A stretch of DNA of 64,000 bases from Candidatus Macondimonas diazotrophica (GTDB lineage Bacteria > Pseudomonadota > Gammaproteobacteria > UBA5335). The stretch lies in assembly GCF_004684205.1 (NCBI RefSeq), contig NZ_SRIO01000006.1, forward strand, positions 62,001-126,000. Direction: 5' to 3'. This document shows positions 36,615 to 40,964 of the stretch, one piece after another. Position 1 is the first letter of the stretch. Every line of letters begins with the position of its first letter. A program made the position numbers and the translations under genes. The notes under the pieces are model-generated. The model saw only the letters and a list, made by a program, of their open reading frames with translations. It ran no database searches and was not told where the DNA came from.

Positions 36615-37535
36615 TCAGCCCGGCGGAAGATCCCTGAGCTGGCCCGGATCGGTGAGCACGATCTGCGGCTTGCCGCCGTCCTGCGGCGGATACAGGCTTG
36701 CCTGTCCCGTGACGTAGACGTAGTTCTGCCGGCCCTCGCCGGTATAGCGCGTCGCCAACAGACGCAACAGGTCCTGCGCCGAGGCCGCCTGCCGATCGGG
36801 GATCCACAGATTGAAGGGTTGCGCGGGCGATCCGGCATAGATCAGCGCGCTATCGCCGACCCAACGGTTGATGCCGCCCTGCAGGTCGCAGAACACCGTG
36901 ACCGGTTCGCCCCGCTGGGCCGCGGTGACCAGATGGGCGTGATCCAGCCGCACGGAGAGCGCGCCGGTATGCGGCCCTGCCGCGCGGTAGCCCTCGATCC
37001 AGCCGTCGCGCATCTGCCACCACGGGATCAGCCGGGTGTAGTCGCGGGTCGGACCATGGCCATTGAGATCAGGATCCCAGATACCGCTGCCGACGGACTG
37101 GGCGTGCGCTTCAGCCGCCAGGAACTCGCGATGATAGAGCCGGGAACGACCGTACTTGACGAAATAGGGGCTCCAGCCCGCCGCCACGGCGGCCAGATTG
37201 TAGTTCACCGCATCGCGCCAGATGTAGGTCAGCAACCGACCGTAATTGCCTCGATGGCGCAGCATGGCCAACGAGGGCGGATCGGCAGTGTCGAATTCCA
37301 AGGTCAGCATCACCTCCGTCGTGGGCGCGCCCTCGGCATCGGCATCGAACCATTCCTTGGCCCACGCCGACGCTTGCCGCCCGCCTTCGGTCACCGGCTT
37401 GGTGCCGCCTGGCCAGCTTTCCTCGGTATCGAGACACGTCAGCCGTAGCGACTCGCTGCGCCCATCCAGCTCGACCTTGATCGTGTCGCCATCCACCACC
37501 TTGAGCAGTCTGGCGGTCATTCGGGTCCCGGGCAT
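36615..37535 (-). CDS. Staphylococcal-nuclease-like (thermonuclease) domain protein
   Basis: 306 residues. N-terminal TNase fold with LLKVVDGDTIKVELDG, RLTCLDTEES (usual RLxxIDTPE), YGRLLTYIWRDAVNYNLAAVAAGWSPYFVKYG and AEAHAQSVGSGIWD. The second half (about 165-306) resembles an OB/micrococcal-nuclease-linked domain of unknown role (HTGALSVRLDHAHLVTAA). There is no signal peptide, unusual for secreted nucleases. AAGGAG precedes the ATG. Confidence 0.75.
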   Translation of the reverse strand: MPGTRMTARLLKVVDGDTIKVELDGRSESLRLTCLDTEESWPGGTKPVTEGGRQASAWAKEWFDADAEGAPTTEVMLTLEFDTADPPSLAMLRHRGNYGRLLTYIWRDAVNYNLAAVAAGWSPYFVKYGRSRLYHREFLAAEAHAQSVGSGIWDPDLNGHGPTRDYTRLIPWWQMRDGWIEGYRAAGPHTGALSVRLDHAHLVTAAQRGEPVTVFCDLQGGINRWVGDSALIYAGSPAQPFNLWIPDRQAASAQDLLRLLATRYTGEGRQNYVYVTGQASLYPPQDGGKPQIVLTDPGQLRDLPPG

Positions 37536-37672
37536 GCGTTGCTCCTTGATGCCGTCCGTGTTACCTCAGGATGAACCGGGCCGATGGCAACATCATGACC
37601 ACGCCGCCGACGGCACGGCCATGCGCTATGATGACGCATCAATCGACGCTCTTGTCTCGGGGATGGATGCGC

Positions 37673-38329
37673 ATGGATCCGCAGTTCTGGCACGCGCGCT
37701 GGGCGCGCGGGGAAATTGGTTTTCACCTTGACCGTGTCCACCCCATGCTCGCCCGATACGGGGCGCCACTCGCCGGGCGACGTGTCCTCGTCCCGCTCTG
37801 TGGGAAGAGCCTCGACATGGTCTACCTAGCCGGCCTTGGCTGCACGGTGGTCGGCATCGAACTGAGCGCGGCGGCTATCGACGCGTTTTTCGCGGAGCAC
37901 GGACTCGAGCCAGCCGTGAGCACGCAAGGTCCGGGCCGGATCTGGCAGGCCGGGCCCTATACCCTGCTGGAAGGCGATTATTTCGAGTTCACCGCGGCCG
38001 ACCTTGGCGCACCCTGCACCGGCCTGTACGACCGCGCTGCGCTCATCGCCCTGCCTCCCGAGCGCCGCTCGGCCTACGCCGTCCACGCCGCCCATCTGCT
38101 CGCCTCCGGCGCCTGGGGCTTACTGATTACGCTGGAATACCCGCAAGAGGTCATGGCAGGCCCACCCTTTTCCGTTCCGGAGTCCGAGGTACGGACGCTC
38201 TACGGACCCTTGGCCGAGGCGCGCGTCCTCGCCGTGGAAGATGCGCTCGCCGCAGAACCGCGCTTCGCCGAGCGCGGTCTCACCCGACTCGAGCAGTGCG
38301 CCTGGGCGCTTGAATTCCCCGTGGCATGA
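37673..38329 (+). CDS. tpm: Thiopurine S-methyltransferase family protein
   Basis: 218 residues, the usual bacterial TPMT length. FWHARWARGEIGFH, GRRVLVPLCGKSLDMVYLAGLGCTVVGIELS (SAM-binding) and LLEGDYFEF, YDRAALIALPPERR, LLITLEYPQ are diagnostic. Bacterial homologues methylate thiopurines and detoxify selenite or tellurite by methylation. Start at MDPQFWHARW. The stop overlaps the next gene's start (ATGA). Confidence 0.92.
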   Translation: MDPQFWHARWARGEIGFHLDRVHPMLARYGAPLAGRRVLVPLCGKSLDMVYLAGLGCTVVGIELSAAAIDAFFAEHGLEPAVSTQGPGRIWQAGPYTLLEGDYFEFTAADLGAPCTGLYDRAALIALPPERRSAYAVHAAHLLASGAWGLLITLEYPQEVMAGPPFSVPESEVRTLYGPLAEARVLAVEDALAAEPRFAERGLTRLEQCAWALEFPVA

Positions 38330-39483
38330 ACGAACCCGTGCCCGATCTCCCCGGAAACCCGGCCAGTACCGTTCGCACCGCCACACTGAGCGACCTGGAC
38401 GCACTGCTCGAGATCGAGCAGCGTTGCTTCGTGACCGACCGGCTCAGCCGGCGCAGCTTCCGCCATCTGCTGAGCCGTGCCAAGGCGGTCACGCTGGTGC
38501 ATGAAACCGGCGCGGTCGTGGACGGCTATGTCCTGGTATTGTTCCACGCCGGTACAGCGCTTGGCCGCCTGTATTCGTTTGCAGTGCTGCCCGAACGTCA
38601 GGGGATGGGTGTGGGGGCCCGCCTGCTGAGCGCCGCCGAAGCCGTCACATTGGCGCGGGGTTACGCCGCGCTCCGTCTGGAAGTTCGAGCTGACAACCAG
38701 CCGGCGCGCGCGCTCTATCATCGGGCGGGCTATCGGGAAATGCGCCTGCTACCGGGATACTACGAAGACCATGGCGACGGGCTGCGGCTGGAAAAAACCC
38801 TCGAGACCAGGCCCGAGCCATCGCTGACCCACGTCCCATTCTATGAACAAACGCTGGAGTTCACTTGCGGACCGGCGGCACTGATGATGGCCATGAAAAC
38901 CTTGGATAAAACCATCGTGCTGGACCGCAAGCTCGAGCTGCGGCTGTGGCGCGAGGCGACCACCATTTTCATGACATCCGGTCATGGCGGCTGCGGTCCG
39001 TACGGGCTGGCGCTGGCAGCCCACCGGCGCGGATTCGAGGTGACCATGCGGGTCAAGGACCAGACCGCGCTGTTCGTCGACTCGGTCCGTTCGCCGGAAA
39101 AAAAGGCCGTGATTGCGCTCGTGCAGGAAGACCAGCTTGAGGAAATCCGCCAAAGCGACATCCGCCTGGAATACGGGCTGGTGTCCGTGGCCGATCTCGA
39201 ACAGGAGCTGCAGACCGGCGGTGTGCCCATCGTCATGATCAGCTCCTATCGCCTTTACGGCGAGAAATTCCCGCATTGGGTCGTGGTGACCGGATTCGAT
39301 GCACACTTCCTTTACATGCATGACCCCTATGTGGATTATGCGATGGGGAAAACGCCGACCGATTGCGTGAATCTTCCCATTCTGAAAGCCGAATTCACCG
39401 GCATGGCGCGCTACGGCAAGAGCGGCCAGCGCGCCGTCATCATCCTTCGCCGCCGCCCACCACGCATTGCAACCCACGCATGA
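38326..39483 (+). CDS. GNAT acetyltransferase fused to a peptidase C39-like domain
   Basis: 385 residues in two domains. Residues about 15-160 form a RimI-like GNAT with the acetyl-CoA loop RQGMGVG (91-97) and AxxLYHRAGY. Residues about 168-378 form a papain-like C39 domain with Cys181 (FTCGPAAL), His317 (FPHWVVVTGF) and Asp333 (MHDPY). Overlaps the next gene (ATGA), a RLAN-RimK ATP-grasp protein. Comparative genomics has linked RimK-like ligases, GNATs and papain-like peptidases as predicted peptide-modifying systems. Function unproven. Confidence 0.86.
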   Translation: MNEPVPDLPGNPASTVRTATLSDLDALLEIEQRCFVTDRLSRRSFRHLLSRAKAVTLVHETGAVVDGYVLVLFHAGTALGRLYSFAVLPERQGMGVGARLLSAAEAVTLARGYAALRLEVRADNQPARALYHRAGYREMRLLPGYYEDHGDGLRLEKTLETRPEPSLTHVPFYEQTLEFTCGPAALMMAMKTLDKTIVLDRKLELRLWREATTIFMTSGHGGCGPYGLALAAHRRGFEVTMRVKDQTALFVDSVRSPEKKAVIALVQEDQLEEIRQSDIRLEYGLVSVADLEQELQTGGVPIVMISSYRLYGEKFPHWVVVTGFDAHFLYMHDPYVDYAMGKTPTDCVNLPILKAEFTGMARYGKSGQRAVIILRRRPPRIATHA

Positions 39484-40964
39484 GCAAACACCTGATTCTG
39501 ATCGAACGTCCCGCAGACTGGCCTTCCGACCTGCCACCGCTGCCGCTGATGACGGCCAAGGATTTCATCGATGCCAACGACGAAACCGATCTGGCGGCCG
39601 ACCGGCAACTCCGGGTCATCAACCTGTGCCGTGGTTATCGCTACGGCAGCATGGGCTATTACTGCTCGCTCCTGGCCGAAGCGCGGGGCCAGCGGATTCT
39701 CCCGAGTGTCGGCACGGCGCTAGATCTGTCCCGCAAGACCATCTACGAGCCGTTGACCGAAGACCTCGATGAAGACCTCCAAAAATACCTGCGCGGCCAC
39801 GATGCGCGGGAGATCCGGTTGTGGATCTTCCTCGGTCGCGCATCGAATCCGGCGTTTCAGGATCTGGCCGATGATCTGTTCGAGCGCCTGCCGTGCCCGC
39901 TGTTGGCCGTCGACCTGCACCAGGACAATCGCTGGCAGATCCATCGGGTGCGCCCCATCGGATTGTCCGAACTCGATCGCGACCAGCGTCAACTGTTCGC
40001 CGAGGCGCTGCAGCATTACCTGGCGGGTGTCTGGCAGAATCCGCGGCGACGTTCACCCGGCCGCTACGACCTGGCCATCCTGCACGATCCCACCGACGCC
40101 CTGCCTCCCTCCAATCCACGCGCCCTCAAGGCGTTCATCCGTGCAGGCAAGCGCCTTGGGCTCGACGTCGAACTGATCACCCGCAAGGATTACGGCCGTC
40201 TGGCCGAATATGATGCACTGTTCATCCGCGAAACCACGGCCATCAACCATCACAGCTTTCGCTTCGCCAAGCGCGCCGAAGCCGAAGGGCTCGTGGTGAT
40301 CGACGATCCCATCTCCATCCTGCGCTGCACCAACAAGGTTTATCTCGCCGAGCTACTGCGCACGCACCGCATCCGCACGCCAGCCACTCAGATCCTGCGG
40401 CGCGAACGCACGCTTGAGCTCGAACCGCCGCTGGATTATCCCGTGGTGCTCAAGATCCCCGATGGCGCCTTCTCGGTGGGCGTCACCAAGGTGCACGATG
40501 CGGCGGAGCTCAAGGACGTCGCCGAACGCATGTTTCAGAAATCCGATCTCATCCTGGCCCAGGAATACCTGTACACCGAGTATGACTGGCGCATCGGCGT
40601 GCTCAACCGCCAACCCCTCTACGCGTGCCAGTACTTCATGAGCAAGGATCACTGGCAGATCTATCAGCACAAGGCCGGTGGCGGTGTCGTGGAAGGCGCG
40701 GCGCGTACCCTGCCGCTCGAACGCGTGCCGCCTGCGGTGATCAAGACCGCCGTCAAAGCCGCGCGGCTGATCGGTACAGGCCTCTACGGCGTCGATCTCA
40801 AGCAGACCCGGCAAGGCGTCTGCGTCATCGAAATCAATGACAATCCCAACATTGATGCCGGCGTAGAGGATCAGATCCTCAAGGAGCAGCTCTACGAGGA
40901 AATCATGGCTGAATTCCTGCGCCGGCTGGATCAGCGCACCCGGCTGCGTTACCGGGGAGGATGA
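39480..40964 (+). CDS. RimK-family ATP-grasp ligase with N-terminal RLAN domain
   Basis: 494 residues. The N-terminal ~180 residues are the RimK-like-associated N-terminal (RLAN) domain (INLCRGYRYGSMGYYCSLLAEARGQRILPSVGTALDLSRK). The C-terminal ATP-grasp domain has VVLKIPDGAFSVGV, DLILAQEYLYTEYDWRIGVL, GAARTLPLE and the metal site VIEINDNPNIDAG near residues 449-460. Such enzymes join amino acids or peptides to carboxyl groups with ATP. Overlaps the GNAT-C39 gene by 4 bp, implying a shared substrate. No substrate peptide gene was found beside the pair. Confidence 0.88.
   Translation: MSKHLILIERPADWPSDLPPLPLMTAKDFIDANDETDLAADRQLRVINLCRGYRYGSMGYYCSLLAEARGQRILPSVGTALDLSRKTIYEPLTEDLDEDLQKYLRGHDAREIRLWIFLGRASNPAFQDLADDLFERLPCPLLAVDLHQDNRWQIHRVRPIGLSELDRDQRQLFAEALQHYLAGVWQNPRRRSPGRYDLAILHDPTDALPPSNPRALKAFIRAGKRLGLDVELITRKDYGRLAEYDALFIRETTAINHHSFRFAKRAEAEGLVVIDDPISILRCTNKVYLAELLRTHRIRTPATQILRRERTLELEPPLDYPVVLKIPDGAFSVGVTKVHDAAELKDVAERMFQKSDLILAQEYLYTEYDWRIGVLNRQPLYACQYFMSKDHWQIYQHKAGGGVVEGAARTLPLERVPPAVIKTAVKAARLIGTGLYGVDLKQTRQGVCVIEINDNPNIDAGVEDQILKEQLYEEIMAEFLRRLDQRTRLRYRGG

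Follow-up and report, generated by a model that had tools for sequence, protein, structure and literature searches.

A conserved acetyltransferase and RLAN-RimK ligase pair with an optional cysteine peptidase: a candidate route to an N-acetylated peptide

The Pfam entry for the RLAN domain (PF14401) reportedly places its gene almost always beside that of a GNAT-papain-like protein, with GCS2 and M20-like peptidases nearby, and predicts a peptide metabolite. The neighbourhood of an RLAN ATP-grasp gene with a GNAT-papain-like gene was reportedly predicted by Iyer et al. in 2009. The fusion of DUF3335 to GNAT is credited to Iyer, Abhiman, Burroughs & Aravind 2009 (Mol Biosyst 5:1636) in PMC10318531, and, judged by that passage, their neighbourhood comprises the same families as the pair described here. 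A comparable logic of GNAT, ATP-grasp ligase and peptidase is found in the NAGGN system (AsnO, a GNAT-ATP-grasp synthetase and an M42 peptidase; TIGR03104/03103/03106), which yields an N-acetylated dipeptide. In the mammalian NAAG pathway, an N-acetyltransferase (NAT8L) likewise precedes RimK-like ligases on the way to a small N-acetyl peptide, RIMKLA/RIMKLB joining Glu to the N-acetylaspartate made by NAT8L, and an N-acyl hydrolase, aspartoacylase, belongs to the pathway as well (PMC3872778). RimK and RimB of Pseudomonas combine a RimK-fold ligase with an opposing peptidase (PMC11957791).

We analysed a stretch of 64,000 nucleotides of Candidatus Macondimonas diazotrophica (contig NZ_SRIO01000006.1, positions 62,001 to 126,000), referred to as the window, in which the following features, all on the + strand, are relevant.

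37571-38329, + strand: thiopurine S-methyltransferase (TPMT) gene, overlapping the start of the GNAT-C39 gene
38326-39483, + strand: GNAT acetyltransferase fused to a DUF3335 papain-like cysteine peptidase domain (GNAT-C39 protein, 385 aa)
Residues ~14-160 of the GNAT-C39 protein: GNAT part, RimI/Ard1-like, with Glu119 and Tyr131
Residues 170-374 of the GNAT-C39 protein: DUF3335 part, with Cys181, His317 and Asp333
39480-39483, + strand: ATGA start/stop overlap (4 bp, 'cATGAgc') of the GNAT-C39 and RLAN-RimK genes
39480-40964, + strand: RLAN + RimK/LysX/ArgX-type ATP-grasp ligase (494 aa), start ATG at 39480
Residues ~1-180 of the ligase: RLAN domain
Residues 196-487 of the ligase: ATP-grasp part, with the metal-site equivalents Asp439, Glu451 and Asn453

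Pfam searches assigned Acetyltransf_1 (25-136, 5.7e-14) and DUF3335 'Peptidase_C39 like' (170-374, 9.2e-88) to the GNAT-C39 protein, and RLAN (PF14401; 37-176, 5.2e-45), N-terminal to a RimK ATP-grasp domain (PF08443; 285-459, 1.3e-9), to the ligase. Together with the open reading frames and the sequence itself, this bears out the genes, domains, coordinates and 4-bp overlap given by the initial annotation. The ATGA likely couples the translation of both genes. An ATGA-type overlap of the same length, which the initial annotation did not mention, also joins the TPMT gene to the 5' end of the GNAT-C39 gene (38326-38329), and the three genes are therefore probably co-translated here. Although it shares the operon here, TPMT adjoins the pair in this genus only, so that it is probably not part of the system.

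With its RLAN-RimK domain order, its adjacent GNAT fused to DUF3335 and its intact active sites, the pair is an ordinary member of its family, one already described by comparative genomics in Iyer et al. 2009, as that work is cited in PMC10318531; the statement of the initial annotation that such associations had been predicted thus holds. What we add is a quantified survey, the dispensability of the peptidase, a fusion of GNAT to RLAN-RimK and links to DUF2817, DUF155 and AspA-like proteins, some of which may already be in the 2009 paper. The literature within reach names no substrate and holds no experimental work on the RLAN-RimK/GNAT pair, in agreement with the initial annotation, which had called the substrates unknown.

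The active sites are conserved in all three domains, so that a loss of catalytic residues among orthologues, which the initial annotation had named as evidence against its reading, was not what the alignments returned. Cys181 and His317 are invariant in 30 of 30 fused homologues, in which Asp (24) or Glu (6) occupies position 333, and a second DUF3335 block, WREAT...GHGGC with Cys223, is nearly as constant. Glu119 of the GNAT domain is invariant in 36 of 36 sequences and Tyr131 nearly so; both line up with a Glu and a Tyr of this genome's RimI, presumably catalytic there. All 31 ligase sequences compared share Asp439, Glu451 and Asn453, which align with Asp248, Glu260 and Asn262 of RimK, presumably its metal-site residues. 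AlphaFold models of both proteins (pLDDT 87 and 92) were compared with known structures; the match lists were filled by ATP-grasp and GNAT structures, and the fold results are those of these two domains. Residues 196-487 of the ligase adopt the ArgX/LysX/RimK fold (Z ~28, rmsd 2.1-2.9 over 260-273 residues), with ArgX bound to LysW and LysX as top matches, and the GNAT domain, among its best matches, has the fold of the RimI/Ard1 N-alpha-acetyltransferases (Z ~23, rmsd ~1.4-1.9 over 142-149 residues).

Despite these likenesses, the pair falls outside the characterised systems. Compared with NAGGN, it has a different ATP-grasp subfamily, an RLAN domain in place of the cyanophycin-synthetase-like region, a papain-like instead of an M42 peptidase and no amidotransferase, and the protein P0001 reaches 21.7 bits on TIGR03103, for which the cut-off is 569; two complete NAGGN operons are located elsewhere in this genome (L191 and L192). 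The NAAG pathway is eukaryotic and has neither an RLAN nor a papain-like domain, leaving a kinship by chemistry alone. RimB is an aspartic rather than a cysteine peptidase, RimK/RimB lacks a GNAT, and the ligase scores 78.6 bits against the TIGR00768 cut-off of 143.4 for the RimK family. The GNAT domain likewise stays below the cut-off for the RimI S18 acetyltransferases (80.0 versus 86.4 bits on TIGR01575), which is exceeded by a genuine RimI elsewhere in the genome (118.2 bits). Leader peptidases of RiPP exporters have their C39 domain fused to an ABC transporter and a precursor with a GG leader nearby; the C39-like domain here is fused to a GNAT, and no small ORF is conserved beside it.

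In a sample of 398 genomes evenly spread over the phylum, RLAN occurred in 72, DUF3335 in 58 and both in 57 genomes, a co-occurrence with a Fisher p of ~1e-53 that overstates the case because the sampled genomes are related; RLAN-RimK together with GNAT was present in about 18% of them. The RLAN and DUF3335 genes are neighbours in 55 of the 57 genomes that hold both, the opposite of the separation in most genomes that the initial annotation had proposed to look for, and lie apart in G041 and G226. Among the adjacent pairs, 29 are arranged as in the window, five are in reversed order, 18 are divergent and three convergent, and the persistence of adjacency through four arrangements argues strongly that the two genes are functionally linked. 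The pair is kept in Pseudomonas, in relatives of the Xanthomonadales, in Azospirillum, in purple and giant sulfur bacteria and in others. Little weight attaches to the 4-bp overlap reported by the initial annotation: where the GNAT gene precedes the ligase gene on the same strand (36 loci), the distances vary (overlap in ten, 0-30 bp in 19, larger in seven; single values are approximate, as start codons were picked by length), and 26 adjacent pairs are arranged otherwise.

Examining 127 RLAN loci, the window included, we found a GNAT-C39 gene nearby at 76, a stand-alone GNAT at 41, a GNAT~RLAN fusion at one and neither at nine; these counts are not independent, since the 80 loci from named genomes draw disproportionately on Pseudomonas and the Rhodanobacter/Dyella group. 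A GNAT thus adjoins or is fused to the ligase at 118 of 127 loci from about 50 lineage groups. A stand-alone GNAT lies beside RLAN in all 12 examined RLAN genomes without DUF3335, and at L177 a single ORF of 659 aa fuses GNAT to RLAN-RimK, next to a separate convergent GNAT-C39 gene. A tree of 83 RLAN-RimK proteins, computed by a quick method and with SH-aLRT as its sole measure of support, shows at least 11 changes of the peptidase label. With these changes and with the peptidase missing at 41 of the 118 GNAT + ligase loci, cleavage is an accessory step: GNAT and ligase form the core of the system, and repeated gains or losses mark the cysteine peptidase as an extra. Of the single substrate that would be ligated, acetylated and cleaved according to the initial annotation, the link between ligase and GNAT stands as strong and ancient, and cleavage turns out not to be obligatory.

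Further hydrolases and ligases recur beside the system. DUF2817, a zinc-peptidase-like family that matches aspartoacylase weakly and in which an HxxE...H pattern is invariant, adjoins it in 15 sampled genomes, mainly of one family (f66) and also of a second (f67), as well as in Methylophaga, HdN1 and two other gammaproteobacterial genomes; DUF155 does so in 14 sampled genomes, and also in Sedimenticola and HdN1. At L100, an AstE/AspA (aspartoacylase-like) deacylase gene directly follows the RLAN gene and overlaps its end. One clade of three lineages (L141, L145, L147) has no GNAT; its operon encodes, besides RLAN-RimK, another kind of papain-like protein together with a ligase of the GCS2 family and a hydrolase of the FGase family. 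In G041 the system is spread over two loci, GNAT + RLAN at one and GNAT-C39 + DUF2817 + DUF155 at the other; this layout and that of L177 may be read as one module for biosynthesis and another for turnover. Taken together, the recurrent partners (DUF2817, the AstE/AspA deacylase, GCS2 with FGase) suit the chemistry of N-acyl- or gamma-glutamyl-peptides.

We propose, at somewhat less than even confidence, that the pair is a two-enzyme cytoplasmic module for a small metabolite, an N-acetylated short peptide, with an optional hydrolase. The GNAT domain would acetylate an amino acid or short peptide on its alpha-amine, and the RLAN-RimK ligase would then activate a carboxylate with ATP and join an amino acid to it. 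Many bacteria, though not all, would go on to cleave the product, for recycling or trimming, with the DUF3335 peptidase domain, a hydrolase encoded nearby (DUF2817, aspartoacylase-like) or both. We infer from the GNAT beside or fused to the ligase at nearly all loci, the L177 fusion, the variable peptidase, the partner hydrolases and the NAGGN and NAAG precedents that all activities act on one compound, that this compound is no protein but a small N-acetyl peptide, and that acetylation comes first and the peptidase works in the hydrolytic direction. Such a system would work like NAGGN or NAAG and be a member of neither. Several observations speak against the proposal: its nearest folds (RimI/Ard1; RimK and LysX/ArgX with LysW) act on proteins and not on free metabolites, papain-like folds may catalyse acyl transfer in place of hydrolysis, some 7% of the RLAN loci lack a detectable GNAT nearby, and the extra hydrolases are missing from the window, with no DUF2817 or DUF155 found in this genome.

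Since proteins are the substrates of RimI, Ard1, RimK and ArgX/LysX alike, the main rival is a modification of one cellular or ribosomal protein, whose N-terminus would be acetylated by the GNAT domain, whose C-terminus (or Glu side chain) would receive amino acids from the ligase and whose tail would be removed by the cysteine peptidase, as RimB does against RimK. We regard this as rather doubtful, albeit a serious contender, given that its closest folds are those of RimI/Ard1 and RimK, that the GNAT domain comes just short of the RimI cut-off, and that Pseudomonas offers a precedent of a ligase with an opposing protease (PMC11957791). Against it, the genome has its own RimI above the cut-off, no gene for a protein target is a conserved neighbour, and the neighbouring deacylases, GCS2 and FGase come from families whose substrates are small N-acyl or gamma-glutamyl compounds. 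We know of no substrate shared by RimI and RimK. The same structural matches, headed by ArgX with bound LysW and by LysX, and the recurrence of N-acyl deacylases as partners would also suit a biosynthesis on a small carrier protein, onto which the ligase loads an amino acid, with an acyl group protecting the amine and a deacylase releasing the product. This is improbable: no small ORF recurs at the loci, and a LysW carrier was rejected, as no LysW-like protein was found in this genome by a search that does find LysW in Thermus, Deinobacterium, Haloferax and Sulfolobus.

RiPP clusters also contain ATP-grasp ligases and C39 peptidases (PMC8939145), and in such a role the C39-like domain would process a leader or disarm a peptide in the biosynthesis of, or self-resistance to, a RiPP, a peptide antibiotic or a toxin. 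Among 4,089 small ORFs at the 127 loci, however, none recurs in more than three other lineage groups, and the recurring ones are seemingly of low complexity or antisense to larger genes, in line with the remark of the initial annotation that no precursor peptide gene adjoins the pair. Since DUF3335 moreover differs from the C39 domain of ABC transporters and a single copy in many lineages looks like housekeeping, this reading is very improbable. A defence system was rejected for want of a match in PADLOC, and a phage origin because phages showed no match to GNAT-C39 and just weak ATP-grasp similarity (~25% identity, covering ~40% of the ligase); the lack of a PADLOC match and of a phage homologue of GNAT-C39 also speaks against the RiPP or toxin reading. 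A glutathione-like role of the ligase was also discarded, ORFs that by inspection resemble ordinary GshA and GshB lying together elsewhere in the genome. The three activities might, finally, have no common substrate, the genes being held together for regulation, e.g., in a common stress response. The varied arrangements and the few genomes with the genes apart (G041, G226) would agree with this, yet adjacency is kept in all four arrangements, a GNAT~ligase fusion exists and the presence and absence of the genes co-varies, which makes it unlikely.

Returning to the N-acetylated peptide, a broader and more tentative possibility is that RLAN-RimK and GNAT form a widespread pathway to a new metabolite of this kind, in its logic the bacterial counterpart of NAGGN and NAAG, in which a core of GNAT and ligase would be joined by an interchangeable turnover module (DUF3335, DUF2817, an AspA-like deacylase or DUF155). 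The conserved active sites and the wide spread of the pair point to an abundant or important small molecule, or to a protein modification. Recognising an acetyltransferase and a ligase as the core, and the peptidase as optional, shows which two genes to delete, the sign to be sought being a missing N-acetylated peptide, and the DUF2817 and DUF155 families thereby gain a candidate pathway in bacteria.

The four-gene operon combining a papain-like (C39_2) protein with RLAN-RimK, GCS2 and FGase was found at three loci (L141, L145 and L147), the ligases of which form a distinct clade in the RLAN-RimK tree with a support of 100. Neither GNAT nor C39 was detectable in the locus neighbourhood of RLAN-RimK at L158, L135, L099, L069, L085 and L131; the first three form one clade, and the genome of L158 carries a GNAT-C39 gene on a different contig (L182). 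Mis-binning is possible for the contigs of L085 and L101, assigned to Sulfuricurvum and Bacteroidetes bins. A fusion was present at one further locus; the branch leading to its ligase in the same tree is long, and the ORF adjoins a separate, convergent GNAT-C39 gene:

L177:9052-11031, minus strand, GNAT fused to RLAN-RimK in one 659-aa ORF

Upstream of the pair in the window lie:

36615-37535, minus strand, staphylococcal-nuclease-like protein of 306 aa
37571-38329, TPMT (thiopurine/selenium/tellurium-type methyltransferase) gene

The C-terminal half of the nuclease-like protein (~150 aa) has no Pfam match. The TPMT stop overlaps the GNAT-C39 start in an ATGA, and this neighbourhood recurs in a second genome of the same genus (L190). 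The window's genome additionally harbors two complete NAGGN osmoprotectant operons (L191, G000:C1:303001-313000; L192, G000:C24:1001-12000), comprising amidotransferase, GNAT-ATP-grasp synthetase and M42 peptidase, the latter encoded by two genes at L192.

DUF3335 proteins also occur outside the standard pair:

L183:9619-10320, plus strand, stand-alone DUF3335 protein of 233 aa
L184:5132-6193, minus strand, DUF3335 protein without recognisable GNAT domain
L184:14188-15396, plus strand, DUF3335 protein without recognisable GNAT domain

The first belongs to G043, the only sampled genome with DUF3335 but without RLAN. The genome of L184 carries the standard pair as well, and by inspection both L184 proteins are encoded near ORFs resembling polyamine- and oligopeptide-type transporter genes; they possibly play a role in peptide catabolism.
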